From Rhodobacter capsulatus (lineage in GTDB: Bacteria > Pseudomonadota > Alphaproteobacteria > Rhodobacterales > Rhodobacteraceae), in assembly GCF_005144475.1 (NCBI RefSeq), contig NZ_SWJZ01000082.1, positions 1 through 64,000 of the forward strand: a stretch of 64,000 nucleotides of DNA. The letters run 5' to 3'. Under the pieces are notes generated by a model. The model did not search any database, had not been told where the DNA came from, and was given only the letters and a program-made list of their open reading frames with translations. The position numbers and the translations under genes are program-made. Positions 21,099-62,286 of the stretch are shown one piece after another; positions within the stretch are counted from its first letter, which is position 1; the number at the start of each line of letters is the position of its first letter.

Positions 21099-22538
21099 TC
21101 AGCCGCCCATCCCGAACCATTGCGCCCAAAGACCCGCCGCCCAGAACATCAGGCTCAGTGTCATCATCAGGATGCCGAGCCCGAACTTGTCGCGCAGCGC
21201 GAAGACGATCGGGTCGTGATCCTGCTTGCCGAACCAGCCGAGCGCCACCATGCGGACAAGCCACCCGCCCATCGGCAGCATCGCCAGCCACAAAAGCCAG
21301 GTGTCGGGGTAAAGCAGCCGCGCCTGATCCGAGATCGAGTAAAGAAAGAAGACCACCAGCGCGCCCACGACGCCGATCGCCGCGACATTGAGCAGATCGC
21401 CGCGGTCCGGGCGGCCATAGCCGCGGCCGGGCAGGGGCTCGTTTTCCGTGGCAAGGGTCAGTTCCGTCAGCCGCTTCACGCAGCCGAGGCTGAGGAAGAT
21501 CGGGAAGATGAAGATCAGCATGTAGATCGAGACATCGACCGCCCCCGCCGCGGCCCCGGCGACGACGCGCAGCGTGTAAAGCGCCGCCAGCGTGGTGATG
21601 TCGATCCAGCGCATGCGTTTGAGCTTCAGCGAATAGGCAAGCGACATCGCCATATAAAGCGCGAGGATGCCGAGGAAGCCCGCGTTCAGCGCCGCCGCAA
21701 GGCCCAGCGCCGTCAGCGCCAGACCGGCGCTGGCGATCATCCCCACCCTGATCGGCACCGCGCCGCAGGCGAAGGGGCGGCGGCATTTCACCGGATGCAG
21801 CCGATCGGCCTCGAGGTCGAGCAGGTCGTTGACGATGTAGATCGCCGAGGCGGCCAGCGAAAACGCCACCATCCCGATCAGGATCGGCAGCAGCGTGGCG
21901 GCGTCGAAACGATGCGCCGCGATCATCGGCAACAGCAGCAGCAGGTTCTTCACCCATTGATGCGGCCTGAGCGCCTTCAGAAGCGCCGCGGGTCTCCAGC
22001 CGCCGGGCAGGGTCACCACGCCGATGCCGCGCGCGGGCAGGGCGGCGGTCTCGGGCACCCGGCCCACCACCACCGCGGTTTCCGCATGTTCCCAGACCGC
22101 CATGTCGGTGGCCTCGTTGCCCGCATAGACGAAACCGCGCGGCCCGAAGACCCGCACCAGCGCCCCGGCCTTGGCCGCGCCCTTCAGATTGAGCCGCCCG
22201 TCCGAGGCGAAGATCCGCTCGGAAAGCCCGTGATCCGCCGCCAGCTGCGCCACCAGCCGCTGATCCGAGGCCGAGGCCAGACAGACCTCCCGGCCCTCGT
22301 TCAGCGCGCCGATCACCACCTCGGCCACGGCGGGGGAAACCGGCATCAGATCGGTGCGCAGGGGCCCCAGCGCGGCCAGTTCCGCCTTCAGCCGGGCGCG
22401 GTCGCGAAATGTGGTCGCCGCGATGCGCAGCGTGCGCAGCGGCGCGCGGCCCAGACCGGCCCAGAAGCTTTCCTGCAGCAGATCCGTGCGCAGAAAGGTG
22501 CCGTCGACATCCAGCACCAGCGGTTTGTCGTTGCTCAT
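21099..22538 (-). CDS. HAD-UbiA fusion, decaprenyl-phosphate phosphoribosyltransferase-like
   Basis: A 479-aa two-domain protein. Residues 1-190 are a HAD-family phosphatase (VLDVDGTFLRTD, then FVYAGNEATDMAVW). The rest is a UbiA prenyltransferase with eight or nine membrane segments and the Asp-rich motif IYIVNDLLDLEADRLHP. UbiA members of this subtype make polyprenyl-phosphoryl-phosphoribose from PRPP, and a fused phosphatase could remove the 5-phosphate, though this is inference. The ATG at 22538 has AAGGG at good spacing; the ATG at 22544 overlaps the preceding stop as ATGA. Confidence 0.87.
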   Translation of the reverse strand: MSNDKPLVLDVDGTFLRTDLLQESFWAGLGRAPLRTLRIAATTFRDRARLKAELAALGPLRTDLMPVSPAVAEVVIGALNEGREVCLASASDQRLVAQLAADHGLSERIFASDGRLNLKGAAKAGALVRVFGPRGFVYAGNEATDMAVWEHAETAVVVGRVPETAALPARGIGVVTLPGGWRPAALLKALRPHQWVKNLLLLLPMIAAHRFDAATLLPILIGMVAFSLAASAIYIVNDLLDLEADRLHPVKCRRPFACGAVPIRVGMIASAGLALTALGLAAALNAGFLGILALYMAMSLAYSLKLKRMRWIDITTLAALYTLRVVAGAAAGAVDVSIYMLIFIFPIFLSLGCVKRLTELTLATENEPLPGRGYGRPDRGDLLNVAAIGVVGALVVFFLYSISDQARLLYPDTWLLWLAMLPMGGWLVRMVALGWFGKQDHDPIVFALRDKFGLGILMMTLSLMFWAAGLWAQWFGMGG

Positions 22539-52589: not shown

Positions 52590-52779
52590 GGCAGCCTCGG
52601 ACGACGATTACCGTGCAACCTTACACCCGAAGGCGTCGCAGATCATGGAAAAGCTCACCAAATGGTAAACTTGCGGCGGCGTGAGGGGGGCATGTCGTTT
52701 TTTGCCATCAAATGTCGGCGACGCTTGCCCGAAGCTTCGCCAACCTGCGACAACGGGGGAAACGCTTCAGGAGTGTCCG

Positions 52780-55278
52780 ATGAAGACCCATGTCAAAGCC
52801 CTTGTCGTCGGCGGCGGTGCCGTTGGCTGTTCGATTGCCTATCACCTGGCCAAGGCGGGCTGGGAGACGATGCTTGTCGAGCGCGACGAGCTGACCTCGG
52901 GCTCGACCTGGCACGCGGCCGGTCTGCTGCCGCTCTTCAACATGAGCTATGCGACGACGCATATCCACAAATACTCGGTCGATCTTTACAAGCAGCTGGA
53001 GGCCGAGACGGGCCTGAACGCGGGCTTTTCGGTTTGCGGCAACCTGCGCATGGCGCAGACGCAGGACCGGATGGACGAATACATGCTCTATTCGAGCGTG
53101 GCGGAAACTGCGGGCGTCTATCACGAATTCCTGACGCCCGCGCAGATTGCCGAACGCTGGCCGCTGGTGCGGACCGATGACCTGAAGGGGGCGCTGTTCC
53201 ACCCGCAGGACGGCTACATCAACCCCGCCGATGTGACCCAGGCGATGGCCAAGGGCGCCCGGCAGCGCGGTGTGGACATTGTCCGCAAGCTGCAGGTGAA
53301 CGGCTACAAATGGACCGGCTCCGAATGGATCGTGACGCTGGAAAAGATGGTCGAGAAGGGCGGCAACCTTGTCGGTTCCGGCGAGCTGATCGACGTTCAC
53401 GCCGAACATGTGGTGACGGCGACGGGCAACCACGCGCAGCGCACGGCGCGGCTTCTGGGCATCAAGATCCCGGCGATTCCGGTCGAGCATCAGTTCATCG
53501 TCACCGAGCCCGATCCGATGCTGCAGGAATGGCGCAAGTCGAACCCGGAACACCCGGTTCTGCGCGATGCCGATGCGAAATGGTATGTCCGCGAGGAACG
53601 TGGCGGCTGGATTTTGGGGCCCTATGAGAAGGGCGCCCCGGCCCGGTTCCTGTATGACGTGCCGGAAACCTTCCGCGCCGATCTCTTCCCGCTCGATCTG
53701 GAACGGATCGAGGCGGAATACATGTCGATGATCCACCGGCTGCCGTCCTCGGAAACCGTTGGTCTGAAAGACGATTTCAACGGCCCGATCTGCTACACGC
53801 CCGATGGCAACCCGCTGGTCGGCCCCGCGCCCGGTCTGCGCAACATGTGGCTGGCGGAAGGCTTCAGCTTCGGCATCACCGCGGCGGGCGGCACCGGCTA
53901 TTATCTGGCGCAGCTGATGGTGAATGGCGAGGCCGAGATCGACATGGCTTCGCTGGACCCGAAACGCTACGGCAGCTGGATGACCAGCGAATATGCCGCG
54001 CGCAAGAACGAGGAATGCTACGATCACGTCTTCATCCTGCACCACCCCGATGAAGAACGCGAAGCCTGCCGCCCGCTGCGCACCGCGCCCGCCTATGACC
54101 GGCAACTGGCCTTGGGCGCGCAGATGGGGCAGGTGAACGGCTGGGAACGGCCGAACTACTATGGCCCGCTCGATGCGGCCCCGGATTTCGATCACAATTC
54201 CCGCAGCTTCCGGCGCGGCGCCTGGTGGCCCCATGCCGTGGCCGAGGCCACCGCGATCCGCGAAACCGCAGGCATCATCGACGCCTCGGCCTTCACCAAG
54301 CATCTGCTGCGGGGCCCCGGGGCGACGGCCTTCCTGGACCATTTCACCTGCAACAAGCTGCCCGCCGTGGGCCGGATCAACCTGACCTATGCGCTGACCG
54401 ATGCGGGCACGACGCGGACGGAATACACCATCGTCCGGCTGGCCGAGAATGAGTATTACCTGATCTCGGCCGGGGCCTGGACGGCTTATGACTATGATTT
54501 CCTGCAGAAATCGGCCGATGATTTCATGGCTTCGGGCGGTGGTTACATCGATATCCACGATGTCACGACGCAATGGGGCGTCTATGCGCTGGCCGGTCCG
54601 AATGCCCGCGCGATCCTCGCCGAAATCGTCAAGGATGCGAATCCGGAAACTGTGCTGGGCAACAAGCGCTTCCCTTGGCTGAGCTGCCGCAACATCGAAC
54701 TGGGCATGTGCCCGGTCCGCGCGATCCGCGTCGCCTATACCGGCGAACTCGGCTGGGAGTTGCACTATCCGATCGAATTCGGCCGCTACCTCTGGGATCT
54801 GATCTGTTCGGTTGGGGAAAAACACGGGCTCAAACCGGTCGGCGCCCGGGCGCAGAACTGGCTGCGGCAGGAAAAATCCTACCGCGCCTTCGGCAACGAA
54901 CTGGGCCGCGATGCGACGCCGATGGAGGCCGGGCTCGACCGTTTCATCGACCTGTCCAAGGACTTCCGCGGCAAGCAGGCCATGCTTTCGACCGGCATCC
55001 GGGCGAAATGCGTGACGCTGCTCATTGACGGGCCGGCGGACACCGATCCCTGGGGCAAGGAAGCGCTGATCCACAACGGCGAAAAGATCGGACGTCTGAC
55101 CTCGGGCGGCTGGTCGGTGGCCTTCGGCAAGCAGATCGGCATGGGCTATGTCCGCCCCGATCTGGCCGAGGTCGGCACGAAGCTGAAGGTGAAGATCCAG
55201 CTGAAGGAATGGGATGCGGTGGTGACCGAAGACAGCCCGCATGACCCGACGAACGCCCGCATCCGCAAGGATGGCTGA
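52780..55278 (+). CDS. GcvT-fused FAD-dependent oxidoreductase (dimethylglycine/sarcosine dehydrogenase type)
   Basis: An 832-aa two-part protein. The N-terminal FAD (DAO) domain has ALVVGGGAVGCSIAYHL and the covalent-flavin motif SGSTWHAAGL (His45). A GcvT-type tetrahydrofolate domain occupies the C-terminal half (GVYALAGPNARAIL, GELGWELHYP). Relatives demethylate dimethylglycine, sarcosine or related N-methyl compounds and pass the methyl group to folate; the substrate is not fixed. The ATG follows AGGAGTGTCCG. The longer frame to 52681 is not supported. Confidence 0.9.
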   Translation: MKTHVKALVVGGGAVGCSIAYHLAKAGWETMLVERDELTSGSTWHAAGLLPLFNMSYATTHIHKYSVDLYKQLEAETGLNAGFSVCGNLRMAQTQDRMDEYMLYSSVAETAGVYHEFLTPAQIAERWPLVRTDDLKGALFHPQDGYINPADVTQAMAKGARQRGVDIVRKLQVNGYKWTGSEWIVTLEKMVEKGGNLVGSGELIDVHAEHVVTATGNHAQRTARLLGIKIPAIPVEHQFIVTEPDPMLQEWRKSNPEHPVLRDADAKWYVREERGGWILGPYEKGAPARFLYDVPETFRADLFPLDLERIEAEYMSMIHRLPSSETVGLKDDFNGPICYTPDGNPLVGPAPGLRNMWLAEGFSFGITAAGGTGYYLAQLMVNGEAEIDMASLDPKRYGSWMTSEYAARKNEECYDHVFILHHPDEEREACRPLRTAPAYDRQLALGAQMGQVNGWERPNYYGPLDAAPDFDHNSRSFRRGAWWPHAVAEATAIRETAGIIDASAFTKHLLRGPGATAFLDHFTCNKLPAVGRINLTYALTDAGTTRTEYTIVRLAENEYYLISAGAWTAYDYDFLQKSADDFMASGGGYIDIHDVTTQWGVYALAGPNARAILAEIVKDANPETVLGNKRFPWLSCRNIELGMCPVRAIRVAYTGELGWELHYPIEFGRYLWDLICSVGEKHGLKPVGARAQNWLRQEKSYRAFGNELGRDATPMEAGLDRFIDLSKDFRGKQAMLSTGIRAKCVTLLIDGPADTDPWGKEALIHNGEKIGRLTSGGWSVAFGKQIGMGYVRPDLAEVGTKLKVKIQLKEWDAVVTEDSPHDPTNARIRKDG

Positions 55279-56773: not shown

Positions 56774-57847
56774 TCAATCGAAACGCGACGGGGCGAGCGC
56801 AGACAGAAGCACGCGGTCAAGCGCGGGGGCACGGCCCGCGATCAGATCGGCGACCAGCTCGGCCGCCGCAGGCGCCAGCTGGAAGCCATAGCCGCCCTGA
56901 CCGGCCAGCCAGAAAAAGCCGGGGGCCGCGGTGTCAAAGCCGATCACCGGGGCGCGGTCCGGCGCAAAGGTGCGCAGCCCGGCCCAATTCGCCAGCAGCC
57001 GCGTCACCGGGGCGGTCACCGCCTCCTCATAGCGCGCCAGCCCCTCGGCCAGCACCATGTCATCGGCCCAGGCGTCCTGCGGTTCGGCCGGGTCCTCGTC
57101 GGCGGGCGAGACGATCAGCGCCCCGGCATCGGGTTTCATGTACCAGTCCTCGCCCCCGCCGATCACCATCGGCCAGCGGCGCACCTCCATCCCCTCGGGG
57201 GCGGGGATCCGCGCCATCGAGCGGCGCAGCGGCGTGAAGCCGAGGGTCTTCACCCCGGCCAGCGCGGCCACCTGATCGACCCAGGCGCCCGCGGCATTGA
57301 TCAGGATCTTCGCGGTGAAGACGAGGCCCCCGGCCTCGACCTCCCAGCCGGTGGGCAGGCGGGTGATCCGGGTGGCGCGGGACCGGGTGCGGATCGTCGC
57401 GCCAGCCGCCCGGGCCTCGCGGGTGTAGCGGGCCAAAAGCGCGTCGGTGTCGATGTCCTTCGCCCGGTCGGCGTAACCGGCAAAGGCCACCGTTTCGGGG
57501 TTCAGGATCGGCCAGAGCGCCTGCGCCGCGGGGATCGTCAGCTCTTCCAGTTGAAAATGCTCAAGATGGTCGCGGAACCGGGCCTCGTGCCCCGCGTCAT
57601 CCACCACCATCAGCCCGCGCGGGGTGAGCAGCCCGGACCCTTCGTAAAAGTCCTGCGAGGCGAGCGAGAGCGCCACCACCACCGGATTGCCGTAGCGCGG
57701 TTCATAAAGCGCGGCCGAGCGGGCGGAGGCGTGATAGGCCAGATCGGCCTCGGCCTCGAGCAGGGTCAGGCTGCCGAGCGGGGCCAGACGGGCGGCCGCG
57801 GACAGCCCCGCGATGCCACCGCCAAGAATGAGAAAATCGGTCTGCAT
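56774..57847 (-). CDS. FAD-dependent amine oxidoreductase (DAO family, DauA-like)
   Basis: A 357-aa protein with the N-terminal FAD motif FLILGGGIAGLSAAARLA and the SARSAALYEPRYGN region seen in D-arginine dehydrogenase-type enzymes. GYGFQLAPAAAEL near the C-terminus is the second FAD contact. It may deaminate D- or glycine-type amino acids. The substrate is unproven. A small lipoprotein gene starts 93 bp upstream on the other strand. Confidence 0.88.
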   Translation of the reverse strand: MQTDFLILGGGIAGLSAAARLAPLGSLTLLEAEADLAYHASARSAALYEPRYGNPVVVALSLASQDFYEGSGLLTPRGLMVVDDAGHEARFRDHLEHFQLEELTIPAAQALWPILNPETVAFAGYADRAKDIDTDALLARYTREARAAGATIRTRSRATRITRLPTGWEVEAGGLVFTAKILINAAGAWVDQVAALAGVKTLGFTPLRRSMARIPAPEGMEVRRWPMVIGGGEDWYMKPDAGALIVSPADEDPAEPQDAWADDMVLAEGLARYEEAVTAPVTRLLANWAGLRTFAPDRAPVIGFDTAAPGFFWLAGQGGYGFQLAPAAAELVADLIAGRAPALDRVLLSALAPSRFD

Positions 57848-57940
57848 GGCAGCAGGTTAGTGGGGCGCCCGGGCAAAGAAAAGGGAGATTGCATCGCGGC
57901 TTGTCGCGGGCGTAGGCTGAGCGCAGCCAAGGAGGGTGCG

Positions 57941-58021
57941 ATGAAACAGGTTTGGATGCTTGGACTTCTGCTGGCTCTGGCGGCTTGCGGCGACAGCGTG
58001 CCGCTGGTGCCGTTCCTTTGA
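57941..58021 (+). CDS. Very small lipoprotein (26 aa)
   Basis: The sequence MKQVWMLGLLLALAACGDSV then PLVPFL has a basic start, hydrophobic core and lipobox (LAAC, Cys16). Cleavage would leave an 11-residue lipopeptide, CGDSVPLVPFL. AAGGAGGG lies 4 bp before the ATG and a perfect 11-bp terminator hairpin begins 9 bp after the stop, so this is very likely an expressed micro-gene. Family unknown; the Gly at +2 does not match the inner-membrane Asp rule. Confidence 0.72.
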   Translation: MKQVWMLGLLLALAACGDSVPLVPFL

Positions 58022-58029
58022 ACCAAAAC

Positions 58030-58055
58030 GGCCGGAACGAGGTTTCGTTCCGGCC
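58030..58055 (+). terminator. Terminator of the micro-lipoprotein gene
   Basis: GGCCGGAACGA (58030-58040) - GGTT - TCGTTCCGGCC (58045-58055), followed by TGTCC. It is shared with the convergent beta-barrel gene that ends at 58091. Confidence 0.8.
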
Positions 58056-58090: not shown

Positions 58091-58792
58091 TCAGAGCCCC
58101 GGCCATATCGCCAGAACGCCGCGCTGGTCGAAGGTGGCGCCGCGCTTGGCGCCGAAATTGAACTGGGCCCCAAGGCCGAAGTAGGTTTCCGACCCGGCAT
58201 TCTCGATTTCGGCGCTGCCAAGCTGGGCGGTGAGCGCAAAGCTGTCGATCCGGTATTCGGCTTCCAGTTGCGCCCGTGACAGGTCGTAGCCTTCGACGTC
58301 GAGAGTGTCGTAGGACGCGCCAAGGGTGAAAGCCTCGGTCGCGTCATAGCCGACGCCGATCCCCATCAACGTCCCGTCGATGTTGGCAAACTCTCCACCG
58401 GCGACATAGGCGTCTCCGTTGAACTGGCCTTGTTCGAAGCCGACTTCGGCGCCGTAGAAATTGTAGCCCTTGCCCTCGATCTCGTCACGGCCGAAGAAGG
58501 CCCCAAGCGAGGCGTTCTCGCTGGCATGATAAAGGCCGTGCAGCGCAACGCTGGCGGTGTCGGCATCCGAGAGGCCGAAGCGGCCAAGCGACAGATCGCC
58601 CTGCAGGCCGAAGTTGCGGTCGAAGCCGAGCTCAAGACTGCCCGAAAGGGCGGTCTTGCTGACGGTGCCTGCGTTGTCGTCGGTGAAGGCGCTGTAATCG
58701 ATGCCAAGGCTGGCGCCTGTGACTTCTGCGGCCTGAGCGGCCGGGGCGCCGAGCGCGCCACATGCCAAGATGCAAAGGAAAATGCGTTTCAT
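58091..58792 (-). CDS. Exported beta-barrel-like protein
   Basis: A 233-aa precursor with a signal peptide (MKRIFLCILACGALGAPAAQA). The rest is alternating, Gly/aromatic-rich strands (GSLELGFDRNFGLQGDLSLGRFGLS, GYDLSRAQLEAEYRIDSFALTAQLGS) typical of small outer-membrane barrels, but without a terminal Phe (ends IWPGL). Function is unknown; it could be a channel or adhesion barrel. Confidence 0.82.
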   Translation of the reverse strand: MKRIFLCILACGALGAPAAQAAEVTGASLGIDYSAFTDDNAGTVSKTALSGSLELGFDRNFGLQGDLSLGRFGLSDADTASVALHGLYHASENASLGAFFGRDEIEGKGYNFYGAEVGFEQGQFNGDAYVAGGEFANIDGTLMGIGVGYDATEAFTLGASYDTLDVEGYDLSRAQLEAEYRIDSFALTAQLGSAEIENAGSETYFGLGAQFNFGAKRGATFDQRGVLAIWPGL

Positions 58793-58920
58793 TCCTGCCT
58801 CCAAAATTGTTGTTTGGACGATCCTAGGCAGGACAAAGGGGGTGCACAACCTTGGATTGCCGCTCCTTGTGGCGACAACGTGACGCACCGCAGTATGATG
58901 TAGTGGCCCGCAAGATATGG

Positions 58921-58953: not shown

Positions 58954-62286
<3,333 letters not shown>

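Follow-up and report, generated by a model that had tools for sequence, protein, structure and literature searches.

A micro-gene of Rhodobacter capsulatus belongs to a conserved family of predicted ultra-short lipoproteins with a common C-terminal end

The micro-gene and its signals

The DNA analysed here, a stretch of 64,000 nucleotides from Rhodobacter capsulatus (the window), contains a very short open frame between a divergent gene for an FAD-dependent oxidoreductase and a convergent gene for an outer-membrane beta-barrel protein (Table 1). The earlier note on this DNA had proposed that the frame is a micro-lipoprotein gene with an 11-residue lipopeptide as its product, and the 26 codons, the lipobox (L13-A14-A15-C16) with its cysteine at position 16 and the strong Shine-Dalgarno sequence (SD) are all present as it had claimed. 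The proposal is strongly supported by conservation in the genus, by a C-terminal motif that runs through the bacterial family and by purifying selection, and we take it as practically certain that this is a real, conserved gene with selection on it.

Table 1. Features at and around the micro-lipoprotein gene, in window coordinates
Feature	Position	Strand	Remark
FAD-dependent oxidoreductase gene (DAO, PF01266)	56774..57847	-	divergent, upstream of the micro-gene
-10-like TAGGCT	57913..57918	+	predicted promoter; possible -35 TTGCAT at 57889-57894, spacing 18
Shine-Dalgarno AAGGAGGG	57929..57936	+	strong; ATG 4 bases downstream
Micro-lipoprotein gene	57941..58021	+	26 codons plus TGA; start ATG at 57941, stop at 58019-58021, read from the sequence; encodes MKQVWMLGLLLALAACGDSVPLVPFL
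Signal peptide MKQVWMLGLLLALAA	57941..57985	+	ends in lipobox LAA|C; predicted cut by signal peptidase II
Predicted mature lipopeptide CGDSVPLVPFL	57986..58018	+	11 residues; core motif C..[VI]Px[VI]Px[IVL]-stop
Perfect 11-bp hairpin	58030..58055	.	flanked by convergent genes; resembles an intrinsic terminator on the minus strand
Outer-membrane beta-barrel protein gene (Porin_4 / OMP_b-brl)	58091..58804	-	convergent, downstream of the micro-gene
carB	58954..62286	-	recurrent neighbour of the micro-gene; 1110 aa from the Met used (putative start)

Genes of 24-27 codons tend to be skipped by gene finders. When the window was filtered loosely for ATG frames of 18-60 codons that resemble short lipoproteins, the micro-lipoprotein was joined by a single, implausible candidate at 22024, and no other frame in the window has the C-terminal ending of the family. 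A longer in-frame reading of 416 aa from 56771 runs antisense through the oxidoreductase gene and is no rival. Further away (52681-55278) lies a large fused oxidoreductase and aminomethyltransferase (DAO, FAO_M, GCV_T), which we take to be sarcosine- or dimethylglycine-dehydrogenase-like.

The micro-lipoproteins possess the features of bacterial lipoproteins, namely a positive n-region, a hydrophobic core and a lipobox, and we consider their lipidation very likely. Most of the 64 distinct member peptides start with M-K or M-R, and the lipobox of the first 71 loci has Leu (67), Val (3) or Ile (1) at -3, Ala (33), Ser (26) or Thr (12) at -2 and Ala (61), Gly (8) or Ser (2) at -1; these lipobox and start counts are partly circular, because the 71 loci were picked by a motif and start filter.

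A scan for consensus promoters found none upstream of the micro-gene. Of 14 loci of the genus, 13 have the hexamer TA[GA][GAC]CT upstream, seven of them at -28 and six at -29 to -40, but overall it is present in no more than 22 of 111 loci, a set that counts one genome twice (L013, L070); in the genus it may be a local form of the -10 element. In 106 of the 111 loci the 20 bases before the start contain at least an SD-like AGG, GAG or GGA.

According to the earlier note the gene has its own perfect terminator. The hairpin is indeed perfect (-22.3 kcal/mol; 4 of 200 shuffles fold equally well). The T-rich tail, however, belongs to the minus strand, so that the hairpin would serve at least the convergent gene at 58091-58804. 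Nor is it a family-wide feature: folding after the stop passes z < -2 in eight genus loci out of 14 and in 25 of 111 loci overall, against 16 of 110 upstream controls, for which reason we reject the hairpin as a conserved part of the family. Where the earlier note had suggested testing conservation of SD, frame and hairpin as one unit, the unit that is conserved consists of SD and frame, while the hairpin is common in the genus only.

Conservation and selection within the genus

A DNA query of 461 bases has matches in 14 of the 17 other genomes of the genus, and the match includes the frame in 13 of them. When the other four genomes were searched with a profile, one further copy turned up (in G007), so that the frame is present in 14 of the 17; neither search found a copy in G004, G010 or G014. 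In two genomes the matching DNA comprises little beyond SD and frame (query positions 230-324 in G005 and 209-322 in G008). Given that the gene was found in at least 85 of 395 genomes of the family and was not found in three of the 17 other genomes of the genus, it is not essential everywhere.

Codons were compared among 13 frames of equal length from the genus (78 pairs). Over the whole frame pS is 0.49 and pN 0.22; the ratio pN/pS is 0.27 in the mature part, which reveals purifying selection, 0.65 in the signal part, and 0.97 and 2.04 in the two shifted frames. Among the four closest species the mature part is without any amino-acid change at a pS of 0.18. Judged by codon comparison, the frame behaves like one that is translated and whose peptide is important in its mature part, and we infer that the micro-gene is a stand-alone, translated gene of a family of ultra-short lipoproteins. 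The alternative, a small RNA or leader in which the open frame arose by chance, could appeal to the hairpin directly downstream in Rhodobacter; it conflicts with the excess of synonymous change, which is restricted to the coding frame, and with the hairpin not being conserved in other genera. Rfam holds no family that matches the micro-gene at cut-off, only two weak matches at chance level, and on the codon pattern and the Rfam result we reject this explanation as next to impossible.

The same comparison bears on a role in signalling between cells, by a released signal peptide or a lipopeptide; the earlier note had considered signalling lipopeptides conceivable. Enterococci provide a precedent, since short hydrophobic peptides from lipoprotein precursors act there as pheromones; in that case the message is the signal-peptide part. 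In the micro-lipoproteins it is this part that drifts and the anchored part that is conserved. We found nothing that speaks for a signalling lipopeptide in this family and regard such a role as extremely unlikely.

A common C-terminal end across the family

The genus profile (A1) also picked up short frames in other genera, and these share the ending. A survey of 395 genomes of the bacterial family gave a match at E <=5e-4 in 120 genomes, and full-length matches, which reach column 22 of 24, in at least 85; this is a lower bound, as up to 21 candidates per genome were scored. All 85 were inspected, and in each of them the stop follows directly after the motif. Across the order, a wider profile has a match at E <=0.001 in 175 of 390 genomes, an unsorted count that includes matches to signal peptides.

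We regard as members those proteins that possess the lipobox, the motif and a stop straight after it. The motif took its present form in two steps. Of 40 loci from among these 85 genomes, 37 fit its strict version, the exceptions being CGIPGVPLV, CGMPFVPFM and CGGVPLIPGI, and it was widened accordingly; a further 17 loci, among them CASFDVPLIPWF, CDIPFVPFF and CSGLLGVPVVPII, contained exceptions that led to a second widening (Phe as last residue, Leu at -7, a mature length of 13). Both sets, like L228-L229, were chosen by profile score alone. The final motif, C-x(1-5)-[VILM]-P-x-[VI]-P-x-[IVLFM]-stop, permits any residue at -5 and -2 and forms the C-terminal end in 139 of 139 genomes, the window genome included, all of them genomes with inspected full-length matches and not a random sample. 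Loci that match in the signal peptide only, the lipoproteins encoded between argH and lysA (L053, L057, L059, L202), L201, duplicate loci and second copies are excluded from this table.

Both prolines of the motif are invariant across the 139 genomes. Position -7 is occupied by Val (113), Ile (24), Met (1) or Leu (1), position -4 by Val (119) or Ile (20), and positions -5 and -2 mostly by Phe or Leu. Ile ends the peptide in 114 genomes, Val in 15, Leu and Phe in 4 each and Met in 2, and the residue after the cysteine is Gly in 107, Asp in 22, Asn in 5, Ser in 3, and Ile and Ala in one each. Mature lengths are 9 (90 genomes), 10 (25), 11 (20), 12 (3) and 13 (1), encoded as a rule by frames of 24-27 codons. 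The commonest mature peptide is the nonapeptide CGVPFVPFI (22 of the 139 genomes); the CGDSVPLVPFL of the window is a long form within the family. The search for PLVPF-type C-termini after a lipobox in Rhodobacterales, which the earlier note had recommended, has thus turned up a conserved ending in 139 genomes of one family. Processed as predicted, these proteins would constitute a conserved lipoprotein family with a mature product of only 9-13 residues, encoded, despite the tiny size of the gene, in a laboratory organism, Rhodobacter capsulatus (whose locus L121 has the identical peptide).

How specific are these matches? A decoy profile with the mature part reversed matched in 4 of 198 genomes at E <=0.001, never past column 17, and three of the four matches fall on signal peptides of genuine members. 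Applied to a comparable sample of 198 genomes at the same threshold, the genus profile was matched up to its last column by 17 members; column 24 was also reached in four non-members, two of them argH-lysA lipoproteins and two long frames. Outside the family we found no member. The class survey (385 genomes, the family included) gave three outside matches at E <=1e-4, which end at column 18-20 of 25. In the phylum survey 13 of 299 genomes match at E <=5e-4, eight of them outside the family; one of the eight reaches column 22, and it is not a member because it continues as CTWVPLAPNAKG in a long frame.

The codon pattern for the 11-residue form was found in 17 contigs among the genome contigs of 84,980 species, including those of Rhodobacter capsulatus, R. 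viridis, R. maris, Pseudorhodobacter and Sinirhodobacter. The titles of 16 contigs name Rhodobacterales-type organisms. The remaining one, L133 (JACXUS010000323.1), bears the title of a Sphingomonadales MAG; its peptide and upstream bases are those of L014, a genome of the genus, and the title is therefore probably wrong. Plasmid records gave no match to a 24-residue member at E <=1, a weak test with so short a query.

In Pfam, NCBIfam and PHROGs we found no model that describes the mature part; PHROGs gave only weak matches, to the signal part. LPAM_1 (PF08139) is matched at E <=1 by 31 of the 64 members. The micro-lipoproteins share the signal peptide and lipobox of this model, which, however, covers the attachment site only and does not define a family. 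Four strings of the C-terminal motif are absent from the open-licence papers searched, and for small proteins or small lipoproteins of Rhodobacter, Rhodobacteraceae or alphaproteobacteria the same literature contains nothing on the gene among the matches listed.

Genomic neighbourhood

According to the earlier note, no gene in the vicinity gives the micro-gene a role. This holds as far as function is concerned; the micro-gene nevertheless has a recurrent neighbour, the gene at 58954-62286, which from its sequence we take to be carB, for the large subunit of carbamoyl-phosphate synthase. With the window product as tblastn query, carB was found within about 3 kb of the micro-gene in at least 41 of 120 loci (window excluded), a lower bound because most loci have a flank of about 1.5 kb or less. 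Within the genus it is convergent with the micro-gene in 14 of 14 loci, 57 to 1276 bases apart, and in other genera it lies upstream on the same strand in 27 of 106 loci, at 113 to 3033 bases. This shared neighbourhood, as read from gene order, supports common descent of the micro-genes rather than a role, and carbamoyl-phosphate synthase is without a link to the envelope. In two loci of other genera (L111 and L115) the micro-gene follows carB by about 180 bases and stands just before a convergent AcrB-type pump gene.

The remaining neighbours change. The FAD-dependent oxidoreductase accompanies the micro-gene in nine loci, all of the genus, and a protein similar to the product of 58091-58804 was found in 4 of 120 loci. 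The contexts in other genera include ketoacyl synthase III with FMN reductase, DUF3422 with an ArsC family protein, UvrB with Usp, MscS with enoyl-CoA hydratase, and AcrB. With adjoining genes varying by genus, no single partner gene beside the micro-gene accounts for its conservation, and a role as operon member or leader was dropped for the same reason. The motif and the stop, and to some extent the proximity of carB, are retained from genus to genus, which shows that comparison by itself is enough to certify micro-genes as small as these.

The changing neighbourhood is also relevant to the entericidins, which the earlier note had suggested as possible relatives. Entericidins are likewise short lipoproteins, and a short, hydrophobic product would suit a membrane-active peptide, a small toxic lipoprotein of the entericidin or lysis-protein kind. 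However, none of the 64 members matches the entericidin model of Pfam at E <=1, which disagrees with that suggestion, and the micro-gene has no constant paired gene that could act as antidote. The strict conservation of one motif over many genera would moreover be unusual for a toxin, and we consider this reading very unlikely.

Relationship to LptM

The best named matches of the micro-lipoproteins are the LptM models: 38 of the 64 members match that of Pfam and 60 that of NCBIfam at E <=1, the best NCBIfam match having an E of 2.1e-4. The window protein scores 16.2 bits against a cut-off of 27.3 in Pfam (PF13627) and 14.8 against 27.7 in NCBIfam (NF047847), and seven further members reach 14.9-20.6 bits against the NCBIfam cut-off of 27.7. 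In the window protein the model match extends to residue 17 and in the other seven to residue 17-18, i.e. to Cys-Gly or one residue further.

In this bacterial family we take the locus of LptM to be the slot between two genes that are, by their sequences, presumably argH and lysA. In the window genome this slot (G000, contig C91) is occupied by a different lipoprotein of 46 aa, L187 (CGVDGPPKPPQ...), in G003, G009 and G011 it is likewise filled by a separate lipoprotein, and in G021, of the same family, the protein in the slot exceeds the Pfam cut-off for LptM. We therefore reject an identity of the micro-lipoprotein with LptM, as its matches, where scores and ranges are listed, stay below cut-off and end near Cys-Gly and the slot is otherwise filled; going by gene order, the positional LptM is another gene, that of the argH-lysA lipoprotein. 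A counterpoint is that the argH-lysA lipoproteins fit the LptM model less well (E 0.11-0.54, or no match) than the micro-lipoproteins do. The presumed LptM of this clade seems to have drifted so far that LptM models barely match it or miss it.

LptM is a small lipoprotein whose mature form, like most micro-lipoproteins, begins with Cys-Gly, and LptM-like genes were reported in 57% of Alphaproteobacteria (PMC10567701). In the structure of the LPS translocon complex of E. coli, LptM is resolved for no more than its ten N-terminal mature residues, which dock in LptD (PMC12644819). Removal of residues 44-67 leaves co-purification with the translocon intact, while removal of residues 22-30 strongly impairs binding (PMC12644819). 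In this known case the docking part is thus an acylated N-terminal stretch of about ten residues. LptM differs from the micro-lipoproteins in being longer and in its argH-lysA slot; the micro-peptides end after 9-13 residues, have a motif of their own, lie elsewhere in the genome, remain below the cut-offs wherever scores are listed and, in the window genome, coexist with an argH-lysA lipoprotein.

By analogy, the micro-lipoprotein may work like LptM, and the family might consist solely of a counterpart to the acylated N-terminal docking stretch of LptM. It may even have taken over the work of LptM. As a concrete version of this, the micro-lipoprotein could be a second, minimal LptM-like subunit that binds the LptD barrel of the LPS translocon, beside the positional LptM or in its place. 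Its predicted form is that of the resolved part of LptM, an acylated cysteine with about ten residues (PMC12644819), and the argH-lysA lipoprotein L202, which reads CGADGAPFVPT, has PFVP in common with the micro-lipoproteins. The better fit of the micro-lipoproteins to the NCBIfam model points the same way, yet the seven matches with known ranges cover no more than Cys-Gly or one residue beyond it, and the filled slots, with the G021 protein above cut-off, speak against it as well, so that we hold this version to be unlikely.

Possible function of the lipopeptide

Our best reading, for which we consider the chances about even, is that the micro-lipoprotein is an acylated docking peptide of an envelope complex. 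The precursor would be exported by Sec, diacylated by Lgt at Cys16, cut by LspA and probably N-acylated by Lnt, and then sorted to a membrane, most likely the outer membrane because the residue after the cysteine is usually Gly. In E. coli, Asp in this position keeps a lipoprotein in the inner membrane; with Asp in 22 of the 139 genomes, one fixed location is not assured. The product would be a lipid anchor bearing a peptide C-G-(x)-V-P-F/L-V-P-F/L-I of 9-13 residues, in most cases 9, with a free carboxyl end. Docking is suggested by the conservation of the prolines, of the hydrophobic residues between them and of the exact C-terminus, while the signal peptide drifts. The lipopeptide may lie as an extended, lipid-anchored strand in a groove of a larger envelope complex and act there as a subunit or assembly aid, in the manner of the ten N-terminal mature residues of LptM in LptD.

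That the C-terminus is fixed suggests a partner that reads the last residue or its carboxyl group. PDZ domains recognise hydrophobic C-termini in this way, and the lipopeptide could accordingly be a C-terminal ligand for a periplasmic PDZ protease or sensor of the DegP, DegS, RseP or CtpA type, with the lipid tethering the ligand to the membrane. No other part of the peptide is as tightly constrained as the C-terminus, and all 139 genomes have a hydrophobic last residue and the stop in the same place. On the other hand, Pro is found at -3 in all 139, which is untypical of DegS ligands with their YxF ending, and we give this possibility little probability.

In a more specific form of the docking reading, which we offer tentatively and consider well short of an even chance, the members would form an unannotated family of Rhodobacter and its relatives whose entire mature product is a lipid-anchored ligand of about nine residues, with a C-terminus that is read, which holds open, plugs or stabilises an envelope machine such as the LPS translocon, BAM or a PDZ protease. 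Such a ligand would amount to an LptM-like protein reduced to its working tip. The family thereby raises the question of which envelope complex needs a lipid-anchored nonapeptide.

Two variations on the general pattern were seen among the members. Two genomes possess two different copies of the micro-gene each (L091 and L198 in G541; L199 and L200 in G341), and two loci, L218 (G962) and L224 (G122), have longer aromatic endings (CASFDVPLIPWF and CSTFDVPLVPWF), which perhaps represent a second subtype.
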